From: a virus | Strand: one strand, 5' to 3' | DNA length: 28,297 bases | IMG/VR virus record: IMGVR_UViG_3300017765_000033 | Coordinates: 1-28,297 of that record | In this document: positions 4,799-25,920 of the stretch, piece by piece | Layout of the letters: each line of letters starts with the position of its first letter | Position numbering within the stretch: position 1 is the first letter of the stretch | Made by a program: the position numbers and the translations under genes | The notes under the pieces: generated by a model | Databases searched by the model: none | What the model saw: the letters and a program-made list of their open reading frames with translations, nothing else | Told to the model about the DNA's origin: nothing

Positions 4799-5703
4799 TT
4801 TGCCTCCCTAGATGCAATGCGTTGTTTTTCTTTAGCAACGGATTTTAGCCAGGCATCTTCTGTCATGCCATGTGGCTTTAGTCCACGGAGTCTGTCAACT
4901 TCATTTTTTGAAAATTGCACACCGTTCTTTTTGCCTTGTGTTTTTTGCCGACTTCCTGGGGAAGTGGAGGCGACTCTTTGCACAGCGGGCCTGCCCTCAC
5001 TTTGTTCAGCATTATCAGATCTAAGATCTGGATAAACTTTATAAACTCTATTATTTAACTCGTTATAATATTCATTTGAATCTGGCTCAAAACCCTCATT
5101 AACCAAATTTACATGGGTATATTGAGCGTATTGTGTAGCCTCTGGTTCTTCACCAAACCAATTATTTTTTGACTTCCACTCTAAAGCCTCTTGCGTTGGT
5201 TGTACCTGGGCCTGTTGTTCTTGCACAGGTTGTTGATAGTAATTTTGCTGTGACTGAGCGTAAGTCTGTTCAGATCTCTGTTTTGCAATTCTTACTTTTT
5301 CTTTTTGAATAGAAACTTCATTTTTTAAACTGTCAGCTTTTGACATAAGTTCAGCATCGCCTGCACCATGAGCTTTTTTATACAACTCATTAGCTTCACG
5401 CTCTTTTAAATTAATGGTTTCTTCTTCTTTTGCTAATAAACTATTTTGAGATTGAACTGCTTGGTTGTAATAAGCATGCACTTCTTGTTCTCTTTGCTGT
5501 AAAGCAGCCTCTAGTGCAGCTGCTTTTTCTTCGGCAGCTCTTTTTCTCTCATTTAGTTTGTTTATTCTTTTTGATACACCTTTAGTGTAATTTTCTAGTT
5601 CGTCGTCGCTTGAAGCCTCATTAGAAACCTCTTGTGATTCAGTAACTTCTACCTCAATATCCTCAACCTCTGGTTGAATTTGATTTTGTTCTTGTATCGT
5701 CAT
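4795..5703 (-). CDS. Probable head scaffolding protein
   Basis: This 302-residue protein is acidic and Gln/Glu-rich, and is largely predicted coiled coil. Residues about 45-155 are a long charged helix (NKLNERKRAAEEKAAALEAA and on), followed by a Gln-rich stretch (QQNYYQQPVQEQQ). The basic C-terminus (GMTEDAWLKSVAKEKQRIAS) resembles the capsid-binding helix of scaffold proteins. It lies upstream of the decoration-like and capsid genes in transcription order, the usual scaffold position. It overlaps both neighbours by ATGA. No protease motif is seen, so scaffold removal would need another protein. Identity rests on composition and position. Confidence 0.75.
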   Translation of the reverse strand: MTIQEQNQIQPEVEDIEVEVTESQEVSNEASSDDELENYTKGVSKRINKLNERKRAAEEKAAALEAALQQREQEVHAYYNQAVQSQNSLLAKEEETINLKEREANELYKKAHGAGDAELMSKADSLKNEVSIQKEKVRIAKQRSEQTYAQSQQNYYQQPVQEQQAQVQPTQEALEWKSKNNWFGEEPEATQYAQYTHVNLVNEGFEPDSNEYYNELNNRVYKVYPDLRSDNAEQSEGRPAVQRVASTSPGSRQKTQGKKNGVQFSKNEVDRLRGLKPHGMTEDAWLKSVAKEKQRIASREAK

Positions 5704-6140
5704 AAGCTCACTATATCATCTGGATTAAGTATGGTGGCAATCACTTCATCATCGTTGATAATGCGAACCTCTGCACCGTCCTCAAGTTTAAATCTCGAAC
5801 CAGAGTAGCGTCCGATTAAAACCCATTGCTTTTCTTCACACCAGGGTGAATCTCCGTATCTTTCTTTGTTGTTATAAGCTAAAGGTCCTTTTTTAACCAC
5901 ATAAGCTACAACTGTTGACAAAGCCTCTCTGTCTGTTGTTTGTTTTGTAAGAATAATGCCGCCTTCTGTTTTGGCTTTTCCTGCGTATGGTAGCACTAAC
6001 ATTCTCCAGCCAGTTGGTTGCGGCATACGATCTAAAATTGATTGATCTAATTTTTCTGGATCTAAAACCACTGAGTCTGGTTCAACGTATGCTTCTGCTA
6101 CCTTTTTAGCCATTACGTTATTTTCTTTAATATTCGTCAT
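5700..6140 (-). CDS. groES: GroES-like co-chaperonin
   Basis: This 146-residue protein carries a chaperonin-10 beta-barrel: GWRMLVLPYAGKAKTEGGII near 44-63 with a mobile-loop-like region, then GPLAYNNKERYGDSPW, WVLIGRYSGSRFKLEDGAEV and INDDEVIATI. That order (N-terminal strand, mobile loop, barrel, final strand) matches Cpn10. It would cap host GroEL to help fold the capsid protein, as gp31 of T4 does. The gene lies next to the scaffold-like and capsid genes, which fits that job. The first ATG is used because it overlaps the upstream stop as ATGA; an internal ATG (MAKKVAEAYV) is an alternative start. Confidence 0.85.
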   Translation of the reverse strand: MTNIKENNVMAKKVAEAYVEPDSVVLDPEKLDQSILDRMPQPTGWRMLVLPYAGKAKTEGGIILTKQTTDREALSTVVAYVVKKGPLAYNNKERYGDSPWCEEKQWVLIGRYSGSRFKLEDGAEVRIINDDEVIATILNPDDIVSL

Positions 6141-10855: not shown

Positions 10856-11299
10856 CTATACTTCGTGCCATTCCTTACCCTCGAATAGTAAGGCTTCCGC
10901 ATCCCTTCTTCTAATTAGTCCTTCAAGCACGCGGCCACCAGCTTTATTCCACCTGCGTATTTGGCTAGGTACTTCATCATATTCGCCTTCATTTAGAACA
11001 CGAAGCATTGTTGAACTACTTAGATTTGATGGGCCTAAATTAAAAGTCCAGGAAACTATTGCGTCATATTGATTTTGTGAAAGCGGTACTTTTACTGCTC
11101 TGGTGACAGATTCTTCAAACTTAGCCACGTCTTCCATTAACAATTCGTCAGCTTCTTCTTGAGTAATCTCCATATCCATAGATACACCATGAGTAGATCC
11201 ATACCCGATTGTAGGAACTCCTGCGGCGCAGTGGTATGCTTTTAATTCGCATCCTTCAAACTTTTTAATTAACGATAAACCTTCTTTTGATATTTGCAT
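10856..11299 (-). CDS. Endolysin, phage lysozyme (GH24)
   Basis: This 147-residue muramidase begins MQISKEGLSLIKKFEGCELK. The GH24 active-site block is clear: Glu15 in KKFEG, then AYHCAAGVPTIGYGST, with Cys24 where T4 lysozyme has Asp and Thr30 as the third member. A Cys there is seen in other phage lysozymes of this family. WTFNLGPSNLSSSTMLRVLN and the C-terminal helix are also typical. There is no signal peptide, so release across the inner membrane should need the holin-like proteins encoded at 17909-18477. It cleaves peptidoglycan at lysis and follows the spanin genes. Confidence 0.92.
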   Translation of the reverse strand: MQISKEGLSLIKKFEGCELKAYHCAAGVPTIGYGSTHGVSMDMEITQEEADELLMEDVAKFEESVTRAVKVPLSQNQYDAIVSWTFNLGPSNLSSSTMLRVLNEGEYDEVPSQIRRWNKAGGRVLEGLIRRRDAEALLFEGKEWHEV

Positions 11300-11300
11300 G

Positions 11301-11690
11301 TTATTCTCCTTCTTTATCCTGTTTTGTAGTTACTTTTCTATAATACACCACAACATCTTTAAGTTCAGTTATGTAGCGTTTGATCTCTTGCATGTTATAA
11401 GCCATTACTTCGTAATCTGGTATTGTCATGGCTAAAAACAATATTTCACCTTCTTGTTCTTCTATTAAAGCTAATTGTTCTTCCCAATTATCTGGTGTTA
11501 CAACTATCCACATTGGTTCTTTTAGATCTATTTCTCTAGGCATTACTGGTTGTACTATGGTTCGGTCCATAGGCTTTGCAGTTATTTCTATTTGTTTAGT
11601 CGGAAGAAGGCTGCAACTGCAAGCCATCATCAAGATCATCAACAGTGACGCTGATTTTCTCGATGTCCTCCATAATATTCTTTGTTCCAT
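11301..11690 (-). CDS. Rz1-type outer-membrane spanin lipoprotein
   Basis: The protein opens with a basic n-region and a hydrophobic stretch ending in a lipobox (LMILMMACSC; lipidated Cys24). A periplasmic part of about 100 residues follows, with Pro near the start (AKPMDRTIVQPVMPREIDL). The first 95 bases overlap the end of the Rz-like gene out of frame, the classic Rz/Rz1 nested arrangement. It would sit in the outer membrane and fuse membranes with its partner after the wall is cut. It is longer than lambda Rz1 and has a charged C-terminus. An internal ATG (MILMMACSC) would leave too short a basic region, so I prefer the first start. Confidence 0.72.
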   Translation of the reverse strand: MEQRILWRTSRKSASLLMILMMACSCSLLPTKQIEITAKPMDRTIVQPVMPREIDLKEPMWIVVTPDNWEEQLALIEEQEGEILFLAMTIPDYEVMAYNMQEIKRYITELKDVVVYYRKVTTKQDKEGE

Positions 11691-11991
11691 TATTTATTTT
11701 CCTTTGCATTTCTTCTGGATCTGCAAGTATTTTTGCCGACAATTGATAATTTTGTATAAACTGTGTATATCTATTTAACTCTCTTTGTGCGGCTTGGCTT
11801 TTAACAGTAAGCTCATTCATTTGTTCAGTCTGTAACGCAAAATCATTTTGAAGTGATGTTATGGCTTCCTCTTGCGTTGCTATAGCGCCTTCTAATACAA
11901 GATTATTCGCAGTTAATGTTTTGTTTTCATTAAACAAATAGTAGGTTGTAAAACCTAAAAACAATATTATGCCTATAAACACTTGTTGCAT
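11596..11991 (-). CDS. Rz-type inner-membrane spanin
   Basis: This 131-residue protein has one N-terminal membrane segment (QVFIGIILFLGFTTYYLF) followed by a long periplasmic coiled coil (LTVKSQAAQRELNRYTQFIQ), the usual i-spanin layout. It overlaps the lipoprotein gene by 95 bases in another frame and sits beside lysozyme. Together with the lipoprotein it would bridge the inner and outer membranes in the final lysis step. No catalytic function is expected. The call rests on topology and arrangement, since spanins share little sequence. Confidence 0.75.
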   Translation of the reverse strand: MQQVFIGIILFLGFTTYYLFNENKTLTANNLVLEGAIATQEEAITSLQNDFALQTEQMNELTVKSQAAQRELNRYTQFIQNYQLSAKILADPEEMQRKINNGTKNIMEDIEKISVTVDDLDDGLQLQPSSD

Positions 11992-12230
11992 TAAATTTCC
12001 TCTATTATGTAATTAAGGCCACCTGCACTTCTGTATTCAATAATACAATCATCTTCGTCCCTAAATTTTAAGTGTTTTTCTTTTTGCACTAAAATTTTTT
12101 TGGTAATAAATGTTCGATCATCTGAGTCACCGTATTCTTTGTTAAATGACACTGTCACTTTATACCTAGTTTGAAATAAAGATAAAAACCAATTAAAAAC
12201 CCATATACTTAATTTTTTTAAATTGTCCAT
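11991..12230 (-). CDS. Small protein with N-terminal membrane-like segment, 79 residues
   Basis: The N-terminus (LSIWVFNWFLSLFQTRY) is aromatic and hydrophobic and may anchor or associate with the membrane. The remainder is a compact beta-rich domain (YKVTVSFNKEYGDSDDRTFI, then KKILVQKEKHLKFRDEDD) ending IEYRSAGGLNYIIEEI. Its start overlaps the end of the cyclase gene by 13 bases, so it is translationally coupled to the cyclase, and its stop abuts the spanin gene. I do not know the family. It could be a lysis accessory or a partner of the cyclase. Confidence 0.65.
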   Translation of the reverse strand: MDNLKKLSIWVFNWFLSLFQTRYKVTVSFNKEYGDSDDRTFITKKILVQKEKHLKFRDEDDCIIEYRSAGGLNYIIEEI

Positions 12231-13966
12231 ATCTGTAACGCGTCTTTTTTACCTTTTACTTTGATAGGTTTTAGAGACTTTAACACAAGTTTGCAATTTT
12301 TTGCAGTTTCTTGCCCAATTAAAATATCTACACCAACTTCTTTGGTTGCCGACTCTAATCTTGCAGCTGTGTTTACAGGATCACCAATTGCCGAATAATC
12401 AAACCGAGTATCGGATCCCATATTACCAATCACTGCTACTCCCGACTGACATCCTACTCCTACCTGGACTGGAGTAGATAAAGTTTTGTTAAGCTCGGCT
12501 ATACCTTTTTGAATATCTATAGCAGCCTGGACAGCTTTTGTTTCTTGATCTTTAAGATCTAAGGGCGCTCCAAATATAAACATACCTGCGTCCCCGATAA
12601 ATTTGTCCGTCATTCCGCCAAGTTTTTGCACGGCGTTGACCTGGACTGTTAAAGTTTTATTCATTATGTCGGTGACTTCCTCTGGTGGCAGTTTTTCACT
12701 TAAAGATGTAAAACCACGAAGATCTGTAAATAAAAATGTGCAGTATTTTTTCTCGCCACCGAGTTTTAATAGATCTGGATTGTCCTGGAGCTGTTTAACT
12801 TGTCTTGGATCCAAATAATGTTCAAATTGTTTTTTGATTTGTTGACGTAATTTGAACTGTTTTCTAAAGTTTAGATAGAAGGCAATAGAGCCTGCAATGA
12901 ACTGTGATACAAAAGTCCATGAAAAATCGATTAAATAACCTTTTTGGACGCTAAAAATCTCTGAGAAAGCCGCTGTGCTTAACAAAATTACAGCCATACT
13001 TACACCCTTGGTTATACCGAGATAATTGATTACAAGCCACGTCAGCGACACAAATATTGCAAAAATTAAAATTTCGGCCGCTAAATGCCAATCTGGGATT
13101 TGTGGAGAGTTTTGTATCAAAATTGACTCAGATAATGCTGCTTGAATCTTGTGAGGTTCTAATAAACCGACTGGGGTTGCAATTTGTGGTTGGATTCCTG
13201 CGGCGGTAATTCCGATAAATACAAATTTACCAGCAACATTCATTTCTTCTAAATTTGTTTCTGGTGTTTTTACCCAGCTAATCCATTTTCTTCCAAAATT
13301 ATCTGTAGGTATTGGTGGCAATCCTCTGACTGCAATTTCTTGTATGCCATTTTCATTCGTGGTAATAATATAGCTTCTGGTTTCAGTTAATACTTTTAAA
13401 ACTTCTGTGCCAAAAGAAGAAACATAGCCGTCTGGTGTTTTTAATAATAATGGTATTCGTCTTACCAGGTTGTCTATGTCAACTGGTGCAGTAGCTATAC
13501 CTTGATTTGCATTATTTTGTAGTATGTTGATATTTTGTACTACACCTGGAGTAAGCATACCACCTACGTCATTGCCTTTTATTATTGTTCCTGTAGTTTT
13601 TGGATATTCACCATTGTCGTTTTCAAACATTGCTAACACAGAAGGTGCATATCCGAGTGTTTGTGCAAAAACCTCATCGCCACCCATTCTGTCTTCTTGT
13701 GGGAAAGCTATTACCCATCCAACTCCCATAGCTCCTGCATTAATAAGATCTATTTGTATTTGTGCGAGAGTTTGACGCGGAAAGGGCCAGCCATCTTCTT
13801 TTGCTACATCTTCTTCTGTAATATTTAAAACAACAAAGTTACCAGAAGGTTCTTGTTCTGTAACCAGTGCATCAAATATTTTTAGTTTTAGTATTTCGGT
13901 TGGTGTAGACTGAAATATTAAAGGCAAGATCAAAATTATAAGTAACAGTGATAATAGTCTTTTCAT
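12218..13966 (-). CDS. CHASE2-domain class III adenylate cyclase
   Basis: This 582-residue protein has an N-terminal membrane segment (5-19), then a periplasmic CHASE2 sensor (about 22-290) with LKIFDAL, DGWPFPRQTLAQ and LINAGAMGVGWVIAFP. Three membrane helices follow (about 294-367), then the linker FEHYLDPRQVKQL, and a class III cyclase domain (about 405-582). Key residues are present: metal-binding Asp415 (FTDLRGF) and Asp459 (GDAGMF), Lys455 for adenine, a Ser at the partner position (FDYSAIGD), and Asn532 and Arg536 (NTAARLE). This set favours cAMP over cGMP. It should work as a membrane dimer that responds to a periplasmic cue. It is very unusual in a phage and lies beside a FecR-domain gene, its common bacterial partner. 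Confidence 0.92.
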   Translation of the reverse strand: MKRLLSLLLIILILPLIFQSTPTEILKLKIFDALVTEQEPSGNFVVLNITEEDVAKEDGWPFPRQTLAQIQIDLINAGAMGVGWVIAFPQEDRMGGDEVFAQTLGYAPSVLAMFENDNGEYPKTTGTIIKGNDVGGMLTPGVVQNINILQNNANQGIATAPVDIDNLVRRIPLLLKTPDGYVSSFGTEVLKVLTETRSYIITTNENGIQEIAVRGLPPIPTDNFGRKWISWVKTPETNLEEMNVAGKFVFIGITAAGIQPQIATPVGLLEPHKIQAALSESILIQNSPQIPDWHLAAEILIFAIFVSLTWLVINYLGITKGVSMAVILLSTAAFSEIFSVQKGYLIDFSWTFVSQFIAGSIAFYLNFRKQFKLRQQIKKQFEHYLDPRQVKQLQDNPDLLKLGGEKKYCTFLFTDLRGFTSLSEKLPPEEVTDIMNKTLTVQVNAVQKLGGMTDKFIGDAGMFIFGAPLDLKDQETKAVQAAIDIQKGIAELNKTLSTPVQVGVGCQSGVAVIGNMGSDTRFDYSAIGDPVNTAARLESATKEVGVDILIGQETAKNCKLVLKSLKPIKVKGKKDALQIWTI

Positions 13967-14355
13967 TTTATATATTTGTAATTATTTATAACTGCTATAC
14001 CTAAGCCTACATTTATAGCGAGTATATAACTTTCACTACTATTTCTTGCTATCAAAGTACCAATTATAGCTTTTTGTAATATTAACTCTTTTAACTCTGG
14101 TCTATCAGGTAAAAGAGGATTAAGTTCTTTACAGGTTAGACATTTTTTCATGCCTTCATAAGTTGTATAAGTATCTAGTACGTTAAGAGTCCAAAAAAAT
14201 ATCATTTGATTTTTTGTTGGAGGCTCTTTGTAGTCACCAAAATTTAAAATAAATTCTTTAGGAGGTATATAAACAGCAGGTTGTTCAGGTATTGTTAAAT
14301 CTAGTTCAGCTGAAACATTTAAAATAAAAAATATAAAAATCAAATATTTCATCAA
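13963..14355 (-). CDS. Small membrane protein with signal sequence (DUF5658-like style)
   Basis: The protein has an N-terminal signal (MMKYLIFIFFILNVSA), a Pro-rich exported stretch, then FFWTLNVLDTYTTYEGMKKC and ELNPLLPDRP, and a C-terminal hydrophobic helix (AINVGLGIAVINNY). The order N-x-L-D-x-x-T-T, a glycine, then E-L-N-P-L, resembles small membrane proteins of the DUF5658 kind. It overlaps both the FecR gene upstream and the cyclase downstream by ATGA, so the three are made together. It could be a membrane partner of the sensor system. Function unknown. Confidence 0.7.
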   Translation of the reverse strand: MMKYLIFIFFILNVSAELDLTIPEQPAVYIPPKEFILNFGDYKEPPTKNQMIFFWTLNVLDTYTTYEGMKKCLTCKELNPLLPDRPELKELILQKAIIGTLIARNSSESYILAINVGLGIAVINNYKYIK

Positions 14356-15476
14356 TTGCTCTGGGTTATTTTTATAGTAGAGTCAGATCCACCGTTTACT
14401 CTCACAACATTTGATTTACCATCTTGTATAAAAATGACGGTATATGATCCGCCGCCGTCTATATCAACACGAGCAGAGCCGCTAACATTCCTTCGTAAAC
14501 TTACAACCTGGCCTGTAACAATAGTTGTAATCTGCGTTTCTGTGTCCTGGCCTATTGCTGTACCAGCAATCTTAATACTAGTGGCTTGCTGTAACTGATC
14601 TTCTTCCTCTTGCACTTCTAAAGCATCTAAAACATTAAGCATATCTTCTAAAAAATTAACATCCAGGTAGTTTATATCTAGCTCTGTAAAAGTTAGATCT
14701 TCACCTAAAAAATCTTCTGCCAAGTAATCTACATCTAAGTCATTAAAATCTAAAACATTGTTTTGTTTTGCAGATACTTGTGCATCGCTTATTTGTTCTT
14801 TTTCTTCTGGTGGCGTAACGATAAGCATGTTATCAAGCATTTCTAAACTAAGATCTAATATTACTGGTTTGCTTGGATTGCTTTCAAAAACCGAAATAGT
14901 TGTTGCCTGAAATGGTTTGTTTAATAAAACAGATCCTGTAGCAGTAATTACTTCAATCTCACCGCTTGATAAACCCAGAGCATCTGGAAGTAATACTATG
15001 AGACTTTTGCCCAATTCGTCCACCGTAACCGAAAAATCTGTTCCGCGAATCGCGATATTAGCGGTCGGTGTTTTTAGCTTTATGTTTTGCTTATCTATAC
15101 GGTTTAGATTGCCTGTTATAAACCTAGCTGTGCCAAGGCCGAAAGTAAGGGCCATTTTAGACTTAGAAGGATCTGGATCAAAAATATACTCGTCTACAAT
15201 GAGCTGACTGTGCTCGGTCAGTCGGACCGTACTATCATCTAAAAAAGTTATGGCCATGCGGCCGTTGTTTGTTATAGCCTCATCGTTTTGCTGAATAGCA
15301 AACTGTATCTCTGCTGGATAGGTTTGATCTCTAACGATTTGTGCTTGGCCGTTAAGCTCAGATATATCGCCTATATCAGCAGCTTGTGCTTGTGCCTTGG
15401 TCGTTTTGAATGACACAAACAGTAGAAGTATTACTGCCTGTATTGTTGGATATAGATATGATCTTAAGCCAGTCAT
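14352..15476 (-). CDS. Secreted FecR-domain protein
   Basis: A signal peptide (about 1-32, ending TKAQAQA) leads to a FecR domain at about 35-190 with NGRMAITFLDDSTVRLTEHS and the family-typical TPTANIAIRGTDFSV (136-150). Residues about 242-288 repeat a D-L-D-V-D-Y-L-like acidic motif. The end (GGGSYTVIFIQDGKSNVVRV) has a Q-x-G-x-x-N pattern reminiscent of curlin repeats. FecR domains act in the periplasm in signalling and are often encoded beside CHASE2 cyclases, as here, so it may regulate the cyclase. The first 101 bases, including the whole signal peptide, overlap the curlin-like gene in another frame. Confidence 0.85.
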   Translation of the reverse strand: MTGLRSYLYPTIQAVILLLFVSFKTTKAQAQAADIGDISELNGQAQIVRDQTYPAEIQFAIQQNDEAITNNGRMAITFLDDSTVRLTEHSQLIVDEYIFDPDPSKSKMALTFGLGTARFITGNLNRIDKQNIKLKTPTANIAIRGTDFSVTVDELGKSLIVLLPDALGLSSGEIEVITATGSVLLNKPFQATTISVFESNPSKPVILDLSLEMLDNMLIVTPPEEKEQISDAQVSAKQNNVLDFNDLDVDYLAEDFLGEDLTFTELDINYLDVNFLEDMLNVLDALEVQEEEDQLQQATSIKIAGTAIGQDTETQITTIVTGQVVSLRRNVSGSARVDIDGGGSYTVIFIQDGKSNVVRVNGGSDSTIKITQSN

Positions 15477-16113
15477 TGTCTTGGGTACTCAGTTGTTGTA
15501 CGTTAAAGGTCATATTATTACCAGTTTGATCTAAATAAAAGTAGCCACCTGCATATCCAGAACCAGTAAAGTTAATTGTGTTCGAATTTCCATCCACGTC
15601 CATGTAATTTGTGGCTCCGTCATAGTTAATATTACTTGTGACTTGGTTCCCAGTACCGTTAATTATCCAATCAAGATCTAGTGTAGCAGCAAGTGCAGAT
15701 GTACCGTGGTTAAGGGTAAAGGTGTTAGTGCTACCAGTCACATCGACGTTATAATTTGAGTTATCAATACCAAAGGTATTTGTAGGATCGCCTTGTATTG
15801 TAAAGGTATTGCTATCGCCATCAAACTCAAAAAATCCTGTTACGCTATCGCCGTATATATCACCAAGAAATTTATTAGTATTACCTATTTGATTTATATC
15901 AAGCGTAAAAGCATTGCCGTCCATATCGAAAGGGGTTAGGGATCCAGCTGAGGATAAGAGTCCTCCTATAATATTGCCAGATCCAAGCTGTTCTAAATCT
16001 ATGTTTACAGTGGTACCAGATTGATCTATGTATATTTCGTTATCAGCCGCGTATGCTGGCGATACAATTAACATCATCATCATCGCAAGGTTTATTAATT
16101 TTAGTTTCTTCAT
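15376..16113 (-). CDS. Curlin-like secreted amyloid repeat protein (CsgA/CsgB-like)
   Basis: I start at MKKLKLINLAMMMMLIVSP, a clean signal peptide cleaved after AYA, with AGGAG upstream. The mature part (about 223 residues) is made of degenerate curlin-type repeats with Ser/Asn, Gln and Gly-x-x-Asn spacing: NEIYIDQSGTTVNIDLEQLG, FTLDINQIGNTN, NTFTIQGDPTN. It is longer than E. coli CsgA, and its only two cysteines are in the last 15 residues (TVCVIQNDQGTSTSC), which is unusual for a curlin. It directly follows the CsgG-like gene. It should be exported by that pore and may form surface fibres. Amyloid formation is inferred. Confidence 0.8.
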   Translation of the reverse strand: MKKLKLINLAMMMMLIVSPAYAADNEIYIDQSGTTVNIDLEQLGSGNIIGGLLSSAGSLTPFDMDGNAFTLDINQIGNTNKFLGDIYGDSVTGFFEFDGDSNTFTIQGDPTNTFGIDNSNYNVDVTGSTNTFTLNHGTSALAATLDLDWIINGTGNQVTSNINYDGATNYMDVDGNSNTINFTGSGYAGGYFYLDQTGNNMTFNVQQLSTQDNDWLKIISISNNTGSNTSTVCVIQNDQGTSTSC

Positions 16114-16351
16114 GCTTCCAAAATCTCCTGTCGTAGCCGACCTTAATGAGCTCAACCACTGCTGCTTCTATTGACTTCATCAAAGCAATAGTAGTGCTCT
16201 CGTTACGCGCAGATCCGATTTCTAACTCTACAAGCTCCGTTCCAGACTCATAAAATTTGAAGACATCGTTTGATCTTCCGTAACTATAAATGGTTTTTTG
16301 GCTTAATACTTCTATAAGAATTTCACCAGTTGCGACTGAAACCATCCGCAA
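16043..16351 (-). CDS. csgG: CsgG-like protein, C-terminal part beyond an in-frame stop
   Basis: This frame is exactly in phase with the CsgG N-terminal part and continues it after a single TAA. LRMVSVATGEIL, SQKTIYSYGRSNDVFKFYES and LMKSIEAAVVELIKVGYDR match the end of CsgG (E. coli: VVNVSTGEILSSV, TSKTILSYEVQAGVFRF, LMSAIETGVIFLINDG). It ends with a Cys-flanked Asp run (PCDDDDVNC) not found in E. coli CsgG. On its own it would start at TTG and could not form the pore. It is most likely the second half of one gene (16043-16924), expressed only if the stop is suppressed, or lost. Its tail overlaps the curlin signal peptide. Confidence 0.8.
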   Translation of the reverse strand: MRMVSVATGEILIEVLSQKTIYSYGRSNDVFKFYESGTELVELEIGSARNESTTIALMKSIEAAVVELIKVGYDRRFWKHEETKINKPCDDDDVNCIASIRG

Positions 16352-16375
16352 ACTAACGCTTACGGTATCTTCTCG

Positions 16376-16378
16376 TTA
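16376..16378 (-). other. In-frame TAA inside csgG, at an expected Tyr codon
   Basis: The codons read GCG CAA TAA CGA GAA GAT ACC GTA. Against E. coli CsgG (DTQYQLDQIAVNL), the protein reads SAQ-stop-REDTVSVSL, so the stop replaces the Tyr of the Q-Y pair. One third-base change from TAT or TAC gives TAA. The frame is intact on both sides. Confidence 0.85.
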
Positions 16379-16924
16379 TTGCGCACTACCAGACACACCG
16401 AGAAAGCGGGCACCAGCGCCACCACTTTTTAAGTTTGTATCATAGCTTATCACAGATCCTTCGAGCAAGACACCTGCAAACAGCAATGGTGGTACATTCC
16501 TGTCTTCTTCTTTTTCAGCAAACTGTTCTCGCGCACTACGAATGAGCTGTCTTTCTTTTACTAGGTTATCTAGGCCCACACGTTCAACTACACGAAAAAA
16601 CTCACCGTTCGACGCATGCTTCAATGCCCGTATAAGTAAAGTGCTAGGCTGTTGAGTTATGGCCGTGCTAAATAAAGCAAACTCGCTGTTGCTTTTTCTT
16701 TGTCCAGTTTGATCGGTAAAAGCAGTTGCATAAACAGCAACTACTGGCTGTACTTCTGGTTTTTGTATATTTTTTAATTCTTCTGATTGTAAAGAAAAAA
16801 TACTTGCTTCTGTTAATCCTTTACTTGGAAACCTTTGTGCAAAGGTATCTTCTTGAACATCGACTATAGCGCAACTAGAAAGTAAAAGAACCAATAGGAA
16901 GGGTAATTTCTGTAATGTTGCCAT
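16376..16924 (-). CDS. csgG: CsgG-like outer-membrane curli secretion pore, N-terminal part
   Basis: A lipoprotein signal (FLLVLLLSSC, lipidated Cys about 18) begins the protein. It continues with CsgG landmarks: VVAVYATAFTDQTGQRKSN, FSTAITQQPSTLLIRALKHA, FRVVERVGLDNLVKERQLIR, LEGSVISYDTNLKSGGAGAR and FLGVSG. CsgG forms a nonameric outer-membrane channel that exports curli subunits. The frame stops at 182 residues, but the same frame continues to 16043 and supplies the missing C-terminal third, giving about 293 residues against 277 in E. coli. The start overlaps the CsgF-like gene by 50 bases. As written, the product would be truncated and probably inactive unless the stop is read through. 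Confidence 0.88.
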   Translation of the reverse strand: MATLQKLPFLLVLLLSSCAIVDVQEDTFAQRFPSKGLTEASIFSLQSEELKNIQKPEVQPVVAVYATAFTDQTGQRKSNSEFALFSTAITQQPSTLLIRALKHASNGEFFRVVERVGLDNLVKERQLIRSAREQFAEKEEDRNVPPLLFAGVLLEGSVISYDTNLKSGGAGARFLGVSGSAQ

Positions 16925-17378
16925 CGGGATCCGTTATTTTTAAAGTTATAAATTGTCCATCGCTAGTGTAAGTTATTATATTGCCTTCTAGCTCAATAGT
17001 TCCAGATGTAGAGGCTGTATCTCCAAAGAGGTTTTCTACTAGCTGTCTTGAAAGCTGTGCATAGATTCTGGACTCCAGGTTACGAATAAATCTAGCTAAA
17101 GTCGTGTTTTCTTTATCACGCTCTATTTGCTCTTGTAGTGCCTTTATTTCTTCTTTTATGGACATTTTACGATTAAACTCTTGGTTCTCAATCGTAAGAT
17201 AGTGACTAGAAGTTCCGATACCAGAAAATGAAGGTGACTTAAATTTATGAACTATCTGGTCAGCTGCAATGTTTTGCACAAATACGCCAAAAAACAAAAC
17301 AAAGCCTATAGCAACTAGAATTTGTATTGTAAAAAGTTTTTCTGCTTCTTCTTTTTTACTTTTTTTGTTTTGTATCAT
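16875..17378 (-). CDS. csgF: CsgF-like curli assembly factor
   Basis: This 167-residue protein has a basic start and one export segment (LVAIGFVLFFGVFVQNIAA), probably cleaved near Ala39. The mature N-terminus carries HKFKSPSFSG, matching the FQFRNPNFGG element by which CsgF plugs into CsgG. The middle is helical, and the C-terminal half (ARFIRNLESRIYAQLSRQLV, then TIELEGNIITYTSDGQFITL and ITDPDGNITEITLP) matches the CsgF core. CsgF sits on the outer side of the CsgG pore and couples secretion to fibre nucleation. It is placed just before csgG with a 50-base overlap. It has a long n-region and an inserted coiled coil relative to E. coli CsgF. Confidence 0.85.
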   Translation of the reverse strand: MIQNKKSKKEEAEKLFTIQILVAIGFVLFFGVFVQNIAADQIVHKFKSPSFSGIGTSSHYLTIENQEFNRKMSIKEEIKALQEQIERDKENTTLARFIRNLESRIYAQLSRQLVENLFGDTASTSGTIELEGNIITYTSDGQFITLKITDPDGNITEITLPIGSFTF

Positions 17379-17616
17379 CTTTTTTTTGTTGTCTGATTTT
17401 AGTTACAGTATCAACCTTCTCTTTTAATCGTATCATATCTTGGTCTAAAAGTCGTAGCTGGTCCGTCAACCTAATAATAGTCTTCTTCATTTCACTTATA
17501 GATGGATCTATGGTGTTGTTAATAGTTTGCCAAACATAGAACACAAAATATCCCAGGCCAATTACCATTACAGTCGGAAAACCGAATTTTTGTATTAAAT
17601 CAACTATTTCCATCAA
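17356..17616 (-). CDS. Single-span membrane protein with cytoplasmic coiled coil, 86 residues
   Basis: One membrane segment (FPTVMVIGLGYFVFYVWQTI) is followed by a coiled coil (IRLTDQLRLLDQDMIRLKEK) and a Lys/Gln-rich tail. Topology and size resemble the gene just upstream, suggesting an old duplication or a matched pair. It overlaps the CsgF-like gene by 23 bases and its other neighbour by ATGA. It could be holin-like or a lysis regulator. No family is recognised, so the role is open. Confidence 0.68.
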   Translation of the reverse strand: MMEIVDLIQKFGFPTVMVIGLGYFVFYVWQTINNTIDPSISEMKKTIIRLTDQLRLLDQDMIRLKEKVDTVTKIRQQKKDDTKQKK

Positions 17617-17909
17617 TCGCGTCTAGCATCAATCTTGCCATCTTCAACAAAGTTTTCTGCTCTAGCGATTCGTTCAAGATCTGGAGGTATGTCAAGTGCG
17701 CTTGACACTACTGTATCAATTCTAATAATGTCGTTGTTCATTATTGAGGCTCTAGTAATAAGCATTTTTGTAATGCCCTGGATAGATTTAATGTCAGATA
17801 CTAGATTATTCATAAGCTGTCTGATTATAAGAAATATAAAATAACCCATAATCAAACCGCTTGCGATTGGTAGGCCTACGTCGCTGATCAAGCCTATGGC
17901 TTGATTCAT
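17613..17909 (-). CDS. Single-span membrane protein with coiled coil, 98 residues
   Basis: The N-terminus MNQAIGLISDVGLPIASGLI leads to a membrane segment (GYFIFLIIRQLM), then a helical region (DIKSIQGITKMLITRASIMN) and a charged C-terminus. The pattern of a short N-terminal helix, G-x-P, and GYF inside the membrane segment is shared with the 86-residue neighbour. It is placed between holin-like genes and the CsgF-like gene, so it may belong to either system. Its start abuts the preceding stop. No family is recognised. Confidence 0.68.
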   Translation of the reverse strand: MNQAIGLISDVGLPIASGLIMGYFIFLIIRQLMNNLVSDIKSIQGITKMLITRASIMNNDIIRIDTVVSSALDIPPDLERIARAENFVEDGKIDARRD

Positions 17910-18295
17910 TACTTATCTTCGCCTTTAAATCCTTTACTTTGTCCAGACTTACCAGAATAAACTCCAAAGACAACACCCATTGCGCCTACAACAACTGAGA
18001 CTAATGCTGATTGTTCTAGGTTAGGATCTGGTAGGTTCATAAACCAAATAACAGACTCATACATAAGATAAATATAAACCACAACAAATATCCTAGGAAA
18101 TATTCTCCAGGCATCTATTGCTCTAGCTAAGTGAATTACTTTTTGCCAGGGGTTTATATTTGTTTCGTCTTCTAAGTCTCTAATTTTTTCTTTGAGTTCA
18201 CCGATTTCTTGAATCATAGACATGAACTTGTTTAGATCCATTTCTACTTCATTACGATCCATGTCTCCGCCAAATCTTCCGCTTCCTTCGTGCAT
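17909..18295 (-). CDS. Holin-like membrane protein with two C-terminal spans, 128 residues
   Basis: I use the ATG at 18293-18295 (MHEGSGRFGGDMDRNEVEMD). It overlaps the upstream stop as TAATG and has a G-rich site before it. The N-terminal half is a charged coiled coil (MIQEIGELKEKIRDLEDE). Two membrane segments follow (IFPRIFVVVYIYLMYESVIW and about 96-113, VSVVVGAMGVVFGVYSG), ending in a basic tail. This topology and the position beside the XhlA-like gene fit a phage holin or pinholin-like protein that lets endolysin reach the wall. The holin role is inferred from topology and neighbours. Confidence 0.7.
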   Translation of the reverse strand: MHEGSGRFGGDMDRNEVEMDLNKFMSMIQEIGELKEKIRDLEDETNINPWQKVIHLARAIDAWRIFPRIFVVVYIYLMYESVIWFMNLPDPNLEQSALVSVVVGAMGVVFGVYSGKSGQSKGFKGEDK

Positions 18296-18477
18296 TATAT
18301 AAACCTCGCTAGTATTACTGCTCCAACTATAAATGGGTAGACGGCCCATATCATGTTTTCTAATTTATCAAAACGCTTAGATCCGTCTTCTAATCTTTTA
18401 TCAATACTTTTATACAAAGCCTTACACTCTCTTTCGTGAGACTCTATTGCATTGAGCGCATCTTTTACTGTAGCCAT
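18295..18477 (-). CDS. XhlA-like (haemolysin XhlA type) holin-associated protein
   Basis: This 60-residue protein has a charged helix (RECKALYKSIDKRLEDGSKR) and a C-terminal membrane segment (MIWAVYPFIVGAVILARFI). The order E-R-E-x(n)-K-R-L-E-x-G-x-K-R-F-x-K-L-E then a membrane anchor matches small XhlA-type proteins that accompany phage holins. It is the first clear lysis gene in transcription order. It overlaps the holin-like gene downstream by TAATG. It probably anchors or times lysis at the inner membrane. Confidence 0.75.
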   Translation of the reverse strand: MATVKDALNAIESHERECKALYKSIDKRLEDGSKRFDKLENMIWAVYPFIVGAVILARFI

Positions 18478-23243: not shown

Positions 23244-25100
23244 TTATTCTACCTCGAATATATCTACATCATTAGGGTTGTAGTTTTTTGTAAATTTTTG
23301 TAAACTATTGTTGATGGAAAAATTTGATACATTATATTTTGCGTGGGAAGATGGTCCTGCTGTATTAGCACCAGTCGGTGACGGAGATCTGGGATATTTT
23401 ATATCTCCAGGTAAGTCTGATTGGACACTAGCAGAGCCAAGCCAAGTTGCAGACTTTTTCGTCGACGGCTCAAAAATATCTAAAGACGCATTTGAAAAAA
23501 CATTTGGTGTCATTGGAGCCGATCTTCCAGAATTACCAGCTGTAACATAACCACCACTAGCAAACTTTTTAACTTCTTTTTTAGAACTTCTTTTTGTAAC
23601 TTTTATAATACTGTCGTCTGGCACCACCATATTTCCAGAGCCGTTTATCTCACCATATACTTTGCCGCCATAAGGCACTTTTTTTGGAGATCCCCATGCA
23701 GCAAATTTTACTCCATTTGGATCATCAAAACTTTTAGCTATTGGACCATTTTCAACAAAAAATTCAATATCATTTCCTGTAGGATCTTTTTTTACAAAAT
23801 CATCTGGCAATATTTCTTTTAGTTTTTTTCTCAAAGTAGGATGTTGCCTGCTTAATGGTTCATCAACTCTTAATAATTTTTCACTTGGTACCTCAACCTT
23901 ATAAACAAAACCGTCTTCGCCAGCATAGTTGGCTACAGTATTTTTTCCTTCTTTATTTCTGGTTGTGAAGTAATGGCCGCGACCATATCGATCAAGGCCT
24001 TTTGGCAACCCAAATTCATCTAAGGGTTCTTTGCTCATGTCAAATTTATCAAATTTTGCTGGACTTCCATGTAATCCTGTAATTCCTTTGCTTGTAAAAT
24101 AGAAATCTGGATCTATTTGATTTTTTGCGTTTCCAAAAACATCACCCATGCCTTTTTGTAAGGCCTCACCTTTAAGTCTTATGTCTCTGCTTATTGTTTG
24201 TAATTCTTTTGAATCTGTCGGCATGCCTTTCGGGAATAAAGATCTAAATTCTTCATATAAAACGTGCGCTTCGTCTGAGGCTCTCCACATAGGAGCTGTA
24301 ATAATACCCACCTCTGCTACTAACTTTTCACCGTTAGATCCAACAAATTGAATATTTAGTTTACGGTCAACAAAACCCTCTGGCTTAATGTCGCGGCCTT
24401 TATCAAAGAGTTTGTATTGGTTTTTCATAAGATCTACAACAGCTTCTTCTTCGGCTGGTGTATTAACCACAATTCTAGTTCTGATTGGATCTGTCAGCTG
24501 CGTTACATCTTTGTCGTATTTTTTTCTGGACTTTTCTACCATCCTGGGTATTTTTTTTACGGTTCCCATTTTTTGCCCAGTAGCTGCATCAATCTTTGTA
24601 GTAAATTCTGGCAGCGTAGTTTCCAGATTTAAACTTTTTGCTATATCGTCTATTTGTTGATTAAACTCTGGAGCTAAACGAACAGCTCGATCATACATCT
24701 TATTTGCATCACCTAAAGGATTGCCTGTATATAGATCTTCCTGGTGTCTTGTTATTTCGTATCGAGGATTGTTGCTAGGTAAACTTTGAATACCTTTTTT
24801 TAAAGGCTGTTTTGCTAGGTTGGCCAGCTCACCAACTAAGGGTACAGCTGCGAGTCCAGATAAAGCGGCAATACCAAGATTGCCAAAGCCACTGCCAATA
24901 TTACCTTGTGAAAAATCTTTAAAAGAATCACGGCCATATTTGCCAGCTGCCGCAATATCCATGGCCATACCTGGAGGAGTAAAGCCAGCAGCTATTTGGC
25001 CGAGTAGAGGTACGTTTTCCTCGTAGCCTTCAACCGTTCGATCTAATAGATCTTTGTCAGCTGCACCGCCTTGTTGGAATATGTCAATATCTTGATACAT
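23244..25100 (-). CDS. Polyvalent-type protein with RelA/SpoT-like and ADP-ribosyltransferase-like domains
   Basis: This 618-residue protein has an N-terminal hydrophobic Gly/Ala-rich part (1-95). Next is a RelA/SpoT-nucleotidyltransferase-like region (about 135-295): EKSRKKYDKDVTQLTDPIRT, EGFVDRKLNI and LVAEVGIITAPMWRASDEAH. An ADP-ribosyltransferase-like region (about 341-505) follows: GLHGSPAKFDKFD, RYGRGHYFTTR, VYKVEVPSEKLLRVDEPLS. A disordered tail has FASGGYVTAG. A D-x-D-I-F or LDIFE motif occurs near both ends and at about 540. Such multi-domain effectors are often carried in the virion and injected. It may modify host nucleotides or proteins; activity is unproven and catalytic residues need alignment. 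Confidence 0.7.
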   Translation of the reverse strand: MYQDIDIFQQGGAADKDLLDRTVEGYEENVPLLGQIAAGFTPPGMAMDIAAAGKYGRDSFKDFSQGNIGSGFGNLGIAALSGLAAVPLVGELANLAKQPLKKGIQSLPSNNPRYEITRHQEDLYTGNPLGDANKMYDRAVRLAPEFNQQIDDIAKSLNLETTLPEFTTKIDAATGQKMGTVKKIPRMVEKSRKKYDKDVTQLTDPIRTRIVVNTPAEEEAVVDLMKNQYKLFDKGRDIKPEGFVDRKLNIQFVGSNGEKLVAEVGIITAPMWRASDEAHVLYEEFRSLFPKGMPTDSKELQTISRDIRLKGEALQKGMGDVFGNAKNQIDPDFYFTSKGITGLHGSPAKFDKFDMSKEPLDEFGLPKGLDRYGRGHYFTTRNKEGKNTVANYAGEDGFVYKVEVPSEKLLRVDEPLSRQHPTLRKKLKEILPDDFVKKDPTGNDIEFFVENGPIAKSFDDPNGVKFAAWGSPKKVPYGGKVYGEINGSGNMVVPDDSIIKVTKRSSKKEVKKFASGGYVTAGNSGRSAPMTPNVFSNASLDIFEPSTKKSATWLGSASVQSDLPGDIKYPRSPSPTGANTAGPSSHAKYNVSNFSINNSLQKFTKNYNPNDVDIFEVE

Positions 25101-25131: not shown

Positions 25132-25920
25132 CTATTCGTGGAGGCCTTGGAATTTTCTTTTGAGTATTCTTTGGACCTTGTGATAGGGGAAGTCCTCGTA
25201 TCCAGCGTGTGAACTTTGGATCTGAGTAGCTATCTTCCTGGCACCTAGGCCTTGAGCTCTTAGTGCATAGATATGCTTTAGAACTGCTTGCTCCTCTGGA
25301 ATTGGCACTAATTTAGTTCTTCTTCTGCTACCAGATTCGTCGTATTCTTTTTTGTAGCCAAAGGGAGTCTTACCACCGATTGAGTAGCCTTTTTCTGCAT
25401 AGACCAGCTTGCCGCCGTTTAGCCTGGACATAATCATTTCTCTCTCGATCTCAGCGAACTGCGCCATGTTGGTCACTAGGTTTTGGTTGGCTATTCTGGT
25501 CATATTCATTTTCGCTGCTAGACCAGATTGTTCTTTTTGCTTGGGCAAAACCACTGGTATGTCTGCAAACATATCGCAGAAGTAAAGTGTGATCCCAGTC
25601 TCTTCCAGAGTAGGAATCATATTAACCATTTCTAAAAAGGATCTTGCAAGCCTGTCGAGCTTGGTTGCTACTATCACGTCGTTAGCGTCCATGGTATCAG
25701 TCAGCTCTCTGGATCCTGGCCTTTCAAGCAATGGCTTCATGCCACTTATGCCAGCGTCGGTAAAGAACTGATCGACTTTCCTGCCGCCGTATTTGTTGGC
25801 CACAAACTCTTCAATAGATCTTTTTTGTTCGTCCAGGGAAGATCCATCTTTGGCCTGCTGCTCAGATGATACTCTGATATAGCCGTAGATATTGTTTACT
25901 TGTTTTCTTGGTTCAATCAT
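25132..25920 (-). CDS. Serine recombinase (resolvase/invertase family)
   Basis: This 262-residue protein has the resolvase catalytic domain: YIRVSSEQQ with nucleophile Ser18, Arg16, DQFFTDAGISG, and ATKLDRLARS carrying the conserved Asp and Arg residues. A recombinase-type DNA-binding part follows (GYSIGGKTPFGYKKEYDESG). The C-terminus is a short helix-turn-helix-like region (ARKIATQIQSSH). It may integrate the phage, invert a DNA segment, or resolve dimers. It is too short for a large serine integrase and is closer to small recombinases with a recombinase domain. It is the last gene of the operon beside the divergent control region. No inverted target repeat was recognised. Confidence 0.9.
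   Translation of the reverse strand: MIEPRKQVNNIYGYIRVSSEQQAKDGSSLDEQKRSIEEFVANKYGGRKVDQFFTDAGISGMKPLLERPGSRELTDTMDANDVIVATKLDRLARSFLEMVNMIPTLEETGITLYFCDMFADIPVVLPKQKEQSGLAAKMNMTRIANQNLVTNMAQFAEIEREMIMSRLNGGKLVYAEKGYSIGGKTPFGYKKEYDESGSRRRTKLVPIPEEQAVLKHIYALRAQGLGARKIATQIQSSHAGYEDFPYHKVQRILKRKFQGLHE

Follow-up and report, generated by a model that had tools for sequence, protein, structure and literature searches.

The window analyzed in this study, a 28,297-nucleotide stretch of viral DNA (positions 1 to 28,297 of IMG/VR virus record IMGVR_UViG_3300017765_000033), contains a gene module that combines homologs of the curli secretion proteins CsgF and CsgG and a curlin-like secreted protein with a secreted FecR-domain protein and a CHASE2 class III nucleotidyl cyclase. 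Tentatively, and with somewhat less than even confidence, we interpret it as a curli-like, type VIII secretion module of pelagiphages that has been coupled to a periplasmic sensor pair of bacterial type; through the cyclase, this pair may report the state of the pore or fibre. In this model, the module would be expressed late in infection, sharing an operon with the lysis genes. The CsgG/CsgF pore would be placed in the outer membrane of the infected cell, allowing the curlin-like solenoid to be exported to its surface. The FecR protein, whose domain reads an outer-membrane partner in PupR-type systems, would report the state of the pore or fibre to the inner-membrane CHASE2 domain, which would set the activity of the cyclase and thereby the formation of, probably, cyclic AMP (cAMP). 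Our guess is that this signal tunes the late phase of infection, for instance through envelope physiology or the timing of lysis, and not a CRP regulon. We favour the model because the Csg, FecR, CHASE2 and cyclase families are recognizable, a CsgG of this group matches a solved structure, and the gene order is nearly fixed and recurs in the isolates HTVC008M and Melnitz. It is further supported by the PupR fold predicted for the FecR protein, the adjacency of FecR and CHASE2 cyclase genes in 42 of 70 cellular loci and in the Campylobacterota, the precedent of the S. meliloti CHASE2 cyclases, the retention of the catalytic residues and the overlapping operon structure, with lysis cassettes following in 107 of 118 loci.

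All genes of the module lie on the minus strand, and neighbours from csgF to the cyclase gene overlap by 1-101 nucleotides. The CsgF homolog (167 amino acids; 16875..17378) was identified by PF10614 (E = 2.7e-16) and phrog_35372 and shares 42% identity with CsgF of HTVC008M; a sequence search of the PDB returned no match for it at E ≤ 0.1. It is followed by genes for the CsgG homolog, the outer-membrane pore (16043..16924; PF03783), the curlin-like secreted repeat protein (245 amino acids; 15376..16113), the FecR-domain protein (374 amino acids; 14352..15476; PF04773, E = 1.9e-10), a signal-bearing membrane protein of 129 amino acids (13963..14352; with a DUF5658 match of only E = 0.014, whose 16.6 bits fall below the cut-off of 25.2) and the cyclase (582 amino acids; 12218..13966; PF05226 over residues 11-305, E = 1.4e-28; PF00211, E = 9e-18). 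Homology searches thus directly uphold the CsgF and CsgG assignments made in a preliminary description of this locus, as well as those of the FecR domain and the CHASE2 cyclase; the curlin-like assignment is borne out only indirectly, through a homolog in Melnitz and a solenoid model.

A feature that went unremarked in that description is a single in-frame TAA codon in csgG (16376-16378), which splits one reading frame into two pieces that both match PF03783 (E = 3.2e-26 and 9.6e-11). If the stop is real, this copy cannot export. It represents a rare variant or a sequence error, because a near-identical contig (L003; 99.96% identity over 10,500 nucleotides) carries an intact csgG of 293 codons, whose product matches the solved E. 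coli CsgG structure (E = 1.9e-40). Among 104 CsgG open reading frames (ORFs) clear of contig ends, a count that takes in the window, HTVC008M and Melnitz, 102 encode at least 240 amino acids; the short ones are those of the window and of L129, where csgG is split (L129:1027-1860), again as a rare broken copy or through a sequence error. A changed genetic code was considered and rejected, since TAA also terminates 8 of 17 other genes checked, including those for the cyclase, the spanins and the terminase, and since the csgG frame of L003 is open. The two disrupted genes might suggest decay of the window copy, or that it is carried as inert cargo, but with 102 of the 104 ORFs at full length and the sequence intact in L003, whose identity with the window spans 10.5 kb, we consider this very improbable.

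The window protein is curlin-like by transitive homology and predicted architecture, and any amyloid formation is purely putative. Matches to the Pfam family Curlin_rpt remain below the cut-off both for this protein (E = 3.6) and for the first HTVC008M curlin (E = 1.1), while the Melnitz curlin-repeat protein, to which it is 28% identical, passes the cut-off with four stretches (E = 8.6e-6). An AlphaFold2 model based on 29 sequences (mean predicted local distance difference test (pLDDT) 79.1, predicted template modelling (pTM) score 0.73) shows a strand-turn-strand solenoid, with a GxxN motif following 6 of 16 strands. VIA-align matched it to other beta-helices, with SufB as the best hit (Z 17.9, 205 residues, root-mean-square deviation (rmsd) 3.9), and CsgA fibrils were absent from its list; such matches show arrangement, not kinship. 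HTVC008M also encodes a second curlin-type protein (L159:6583-7908), annotated as hypothetical, which contains five Curlin_rpt stretches (E = 5.2e-8) and a PA14 domain (E = 2.7e-6). PA14 domains could bind glycans.

The FecR protein is predicted to be a periplasmic sensor of the PupR type. In its model (mean pLDDT 73.5, pTM 0.48), a signal helix (residues 5-24) is followed by periplasmic strands from residue 36, and residues 62-217 match the cell-surface-signalling domain of PupR (6ovk; Z 15.7, 136 residues, rmsd 2.5); the best Foldseek hit was 4m0h (E = 2.5e-5). It shares this periplasmic FecR-domain fold with the PupR/FecR anti-sigma regulators but differs from them in having the periplasmic domain directly behind the signal helix; neither the Pfam search nor the model showed a cytoplasmic anti-sigma part ahead of the membrane helix. 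Its C-terminal beta region was not seen in the sampled cellular homologs, whose matches extend no further than model position 198 of 370.

To place the sensor pair, genome contigs were scanned with the FecR alignment, which yielded 323 stretches (272 relatives); the best 80 comprised 70 cellular and 10 phage loci and are biased toward phage-like FecR proteins. A CHASE2 match lay within 300 nucleotides of the FecR gene in 42 of the 70 cellular loci, on the same strand in 25 and on the opposite strand in 17; it occurred elsewhere in the locus in 7 cases and was not found in 12 loci whose flanks each measured 1.5 kb or more, nor in 9 whose flanks were shorter. These loci include Massilia, Duganella and other groups, and none of the 70 contained a match to csg genes or to s1/s2, two small genes upstream of csgF described below. 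We considered the FecR-CHASE2 cyclase pairing as a new observation and dropped this claim, as it has been reported for the Campylobacterota (PMC9239204). Conversely, csgF-csgG was matched in 6 of 385 genomes. Five of these loci, from alphaproteobacteria, were examined, the sixth lying below the cut-off, and their 20-kb stretches contained no FecR, CHASE2, cyclase or s match; CHASE2 was present at other places in two of the five genomes. We therefore reject the idea that a bacterial curli operon was captured whole. Because csg genes are absent from the 70 cellular FecR loci and the sensor pair from the five csgF-csgG loci, we conclude that a bacterial sensor pair was joined to the secretion set, a join that looks specific to phages in these samples. 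The phage cluster is likewise set apart from bacterial type VIII secretion operons in PMC9599517.

The cyclase keeps its catalytic residues. In an alignment of 155 sequences, D415, K455, D459 and R536 are kept throughout and N532 in 154. We take these residues to be the two metal-binding Asp (D415, D459), the purine-contacting Lys (K455), and the catalytic Asn (N532) and Arg (R536). Position 525 is occupied by S in 110 sequences, by T in 44 and by D in one, as would suit a class III enzyme of the adenylate type. The window protein also matches adenylate cyclases of known structure, and its product is probably cAMP. In locus L016, the cyclase is broken over two ORFs, reflecting a rare broken copy or a sequence error.

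The arrangement of the module is highly conserved. Two IMG/VR scans, each contributing the best 80 of 600 stretches, gave 157 distinct viral loci (L002-L158), which were picked by FecR or cyclase similarity rather than by their neighbours and are close relatives, not independent samples; positional counts use only loci whose contig extends far enough. CsgF and CsgG genes lay upstream of FecR in 72/72 loci, s genes upstream of FecR in 66/66 and the cyclase gene downstream in 140/140. A curlin gene was located within 300 nucleotides upstream of FecR in 105 of 108 loci, and the other three also carry a curlin match in the row. The gene order is therefore nearly invariant, beyond chance, over the loci sampled, and the linkage proposed in the preliminary description extends to the relatives of this phage rather than dissolving into scattered genes. 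HTVC008M and Melnitz show the order of the window plus one gene before the cyclase, which encodes a second curlin-type protein in both. The same module was found at ten loci (L161-L170) on nine contigs from bacterial genome bins labelled Pelagibacter, Maricaulis, Neomarinimicrobiota, Saprospirales, Sphingobacteriales, Planctomycetaceae and Flavobacteriaceae, which are probably phage contigs binned with bacteria.

Variation is seen in the slot between FecR and the cyclase. The FecR stop directly overlaps the cyclase start in L002, L004, L005 and L006, which lack the gene for the 129-residue membrane protein, while the window and L003 contain this gene with both overlaps retained; a homolog occupies the slot in L099, and other small ORFs do so in L048, L050, L061, L072, L153 and L158. 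An identical gene, DNA methylase-like by eye (SPPY motif), sits there in two further loci (L043:5633-6310 and L073:1130-1807).

The module is part of a longer minus-strand run from 18349 to 10856, in which consecutive genes overlap or abut (gaps of -101 to +1 nucleotides). This run exceeds the six genes of the preliminary description, since two small genes for membrane or coiled-coil proteins precede these six (17356-17909) and genes for lysis come after them (10856-11991). Behind the cyclase gene follow an ORF of 79 codons without assigned function (11991..12230), two genes for Rz-like spanins (11596..11991, phrog_739; and 11301..11690, phrog_812, overlapping the former in the Rz1 position) and an endolysin gene (10856..11299; phrog_7, E = 3.3e-63). 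Among 118 loci whose sequence continues for more than 1.6 kb beyond the cyclase, a spanin or endolysin match of the window type was present within about 2.1 kb in 90. In the other 28, we found 17 with genes related to the lysis genes of L100 (a holin of phrog_3427 and an endolysin of phrog_894, typed in that locus only), 8 with a phrog_1544-type protein of unassigned function and 3 with neither. One of two unrelated lysis cassettes thus follows the cyclase in 107 of 118 loci. This linkage may reflect a role in the lysis phase, or simply a preference for insertion at this point of a late operon. Neither holin nor endolysin is mentioned in the main text of PMC9599517.

A more far-reaching version of the sensor model would be an envelope checkpoint made by the phage, in which FecR reads the state of CsgG and the curlin at the outer membrane, CHASE2 converts it into a cyclic nucleotide, and this nucleotide times the lysis cassette downstream in the same operon through an unrecognized, perhaps phage-encoded receptor. 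The host lineage, for its part, seems mostly devoid of class III cyclases and of cyclic-nucleotide (cNMP)-binding proteins of its own. We regard this version as improbable.

Several points weigh against the proposal that the module exports a fibre and reports on it. The csgG gene of the window itself is interrupted. CsgE, noted as not visible in the preliminary description, was indeed found in none of 15 records, that is, the window and 14 related records, and the lack of CsgE in pelagiphages has been published (PMC9599517). The curlin assignment is transitive, with the first HTVC008M curlin itself below the cut-off, and a Foldseek search of the PDB with the curlin-like model gave no match at E ≤ 0.001. 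The C-terminus of the FecR protein, which ends in IxIxQxN, was tried as a curlin repeat that might sample the fibre; we discarded this idea, because a profile-profile probability of only 2.5% (E = 0.019) leaves the kinship unsupported. HTVC008M and Melnitz have no lysis neighbourhood after the cyclase, and Melnitz-infected cells did not clump (PMC9004378).

A further difficulty concerns the reader of the signal. In 79 genomes from the family of a metagenome-assembled genome labelled Candidatus Pelagibacter (G002), the presumed host family (completeness unstated), cNMP-binding domains were detected in only four, one of them G001, the metagenome-assembled genome with locus L161; response regulators, serving as a control, were present in 77 and GAF domains in 6. 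Class III cyclases occurred in three of these genomes, two of which represent the phage contigs themselves; the third, G067, carries a sub-cut-off cyclase match together with a cNMP-binding domain on one contig, and at least one family member may thus own a cAMP system. CsgG was found in two genomes, in both cases on the phage contigs. Similarly, none of 14 phage records (HTVC008M and Melnitz as complete genomes, the other twelve possibly as fragments) contained a cNMP-binding domain. With such domains in 4/79 genomes and 0/14 phage records, a recognizable reader is scarce. A literature search on SAR11 with cAMP or CRP returned nothing relevant among the 12 titles listed of 1,202, and no paper stating this gap was found in the searches made; the words Receptor and Crp are absent from the main text of PMC9599517, whose reference list includes a paper on CRP and csgD. 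The working idea of the preliminary description, amyloid export combined with envelope sensing and a rise in cAMP, therefore holds in parts, fitting the PupR-like fold of FecR and the catalytic residues of the cyclase, but meets a host family in which recognizable cAMP receptors are rare and phages in which none was found.

Some of these points are shared by a different interpretation, in which CsgG and CsgF serve as a repurposed pore for uptake or lysis timing, FecR and CHASE2 act as an envelope sensor, and the curlin-like protein plugs or gates instead of building a fibre. Pore functions have been suggested in print, for lysis timing in PMC9004378 and for uptake in PMC7029224 and PMC9599517, and the lysis cassettes behind 107 of 118 cyclase genes, the absence of CsgE, the strong divergence of the curlin repeats and the lack of clumping with Melnitz are all in line with them. 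However, a curlin-like gene adjoins FecR in 105 of 108 loci and is present in the other three, CsgF, the fibre-anchoring chaperone, has been retained, and the isolates carry even a second curlin-type gene. We judge the repurposed pore unlikely. A little less probable, in our view, is that the module forms surface fibres for aggregation or superinfection exclusion, with FecR and the cyclase as passengers or weak regulators. This idea is already in print as 'sibling capture' (PMC7029224; PMC9599517) and accords with the full set of CsgF, CsgG and curlin genes and the PA14 domain on the second HTVC008M curlin. Aside from the absence of clumping, it is challenged by the cyclase itself, whose presence in all 140 sufficiently long loci with nearly invariant catalytic residues argues that FecR and the cyclase are not passengers.

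The sensing step of our preferred model, a report from FecR on the pore or fibre to the cyclase, resembles known systems. The CHASE2 cyclases of S. meliloti (CyaD1, CyaD2 and CyaK) respond through the outer-membrane protein NsrA (PMC13001267), and removal of CHASE2 from an S. meliloti cyclase leads to constitutive cAMP formation (PMC5498481). The likeness lies in a CHASE2 cyclase working through an outer-membrane protein; the reader in S. meliloti is the CRP-family protein Clr, for which no counterpart was recognized for the phage module. FecR/CHASE2-cyclase clusters of the Campylobacterota additionally contain a phosphodiesterase and a TPR protein (PMC9239204), which were not seen in the window, and a Burkholderia biofilm operon combines a LysM-FecR protein with a CHASE2 kinase (PMC5192318) rather than a cyclase. 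In both, as in the window, a secreted FecR-domain protein adjoins a CHASE2 sensor enzyme, but, unlike the window, they lack curli genes. With the E. coli curli system (csgBAC-csgDEFG), the window shares homologs of CsgG and CsgF and a signal-bearing curlin-like subunit; it differs in the lack of CsgE, its divergent repeats and the attached FecR protein and CHASE2 cyclase.

The cluster as such is already known. The statement in the preliminary description that no phage system linking curli export with a sensor cyclase had been described proved wrong, because PMC9599517 (2022) reports a cluster of type VIII secretion, FecR and adenylate cyclase genes in pelagiphages, in the order CsgF-CsgG-CsgA/B-FecR-(second curlin)-adenylate cyclase, from HTVC023P-type podophages and pelagimyophages, with conserved order, metatranscriptomic expression and transfer from one phage family to another. 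csgF and csgG had also been described in related myophages (PMC7029224, 2020; PMC9004378, 2022). The window adds one more member, which agrees with the published pelagiphage cluster in genes, order, phage type, the absence of CsgE, the presence of FecR and cyclase, and one or more small genes before csgF. It deviates in its interrupted csgG, in small upstream genes that show no kinase domain and, relative to the pelagimyophages, in a membrane protein of 129 residues at the place of their second curlin. As far as the literature searched is concerned, the counts of lysis cassettes, the cargo slot in which gene overlaps are preserved, the problem with the kinase label and the scarcity of cAMP readers are new.

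The kinase label concerns the one or two histidine kinases placed before CsgF in PMC9599517. In the window, this place is taken by s2 (98 amino acids; 17613..17909, minus strand), with an N-terminal hydrophobic segment and, by eye, a coiled coil, and by its paralog s1 (86 amino acids; 17356..17616, minus strand). Both belong to phrog_18771, which was matched by all 14 aligned family members, five of them with an additional weak holin-family match; a Pfam scan of these 14 members at E ≤ 1 found no kinase family. By sequence, s1 and s2 thus show no kinase domain, at odds with the published label, the equation with the kinases of that paper being made by position only. The first gene of the run considered (17909..18349, minus strand) encodes a membrane protein of 146 amino acids without assigned function (phrog_10198), matched in 19 of 161 sources, with the window counted twice.

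The terminase and portal sequences place the window, as a genome fragment, among the HTVC023P-type pelagiphages, phages of a type that infects SAR11. Terminase identity amounts to 60.6% with 023Pt_psg01, 58.7% with HTVC027P and 57.7% with HTVC023P, the recorded host of the latter two being Candidatus Pelagibacter HTCC1062. A SAR11 host is likely rather than proven, because the terminase of DSL-LC04, whose recorded host belongs to the Gammaproteobacteria, is similarly close (60.3% over 90%). Elsewhere on the minus strand, the window encodes a GroES-like co-chaperonin in the capsid region (5700-6140; phrog_3188, E = 1e-13), comparable to the annotated GroES near the capsid gene of HTVC023P, a 5'-3' deoxyribonucleotidase-like protein (1100-1582; phrog_2643, E = 2e-34), a 618-residue, possibly polyvalent protein with sub-cut-off matches to RelA_SpoT (E = 0.0029) and ART-PolyVal (E = 0.0087; 23244-25100) and a serine recombinase (25132-25920; Resolvase domain, E = 1.2e-25).

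Collectively, phages infecting the most abundant bacteria of the sea appear to supply a machine for surface secretion, one that the family of their hosts lacks. Two puzzles stand out, namely the use of cAMP in cells mostly without a cNMP-binding protein and the placement of the module before unrelated lysis cassettes. If our interpretation is true, the suggestion in the literature of an E. coli-like control of curli expression by the cyclase would need another reader. What has been a list of auxiliary genes may thus be turned into testable questions, above all whether the FecR-CHASE2 cyclase senses the pore or the fibre.

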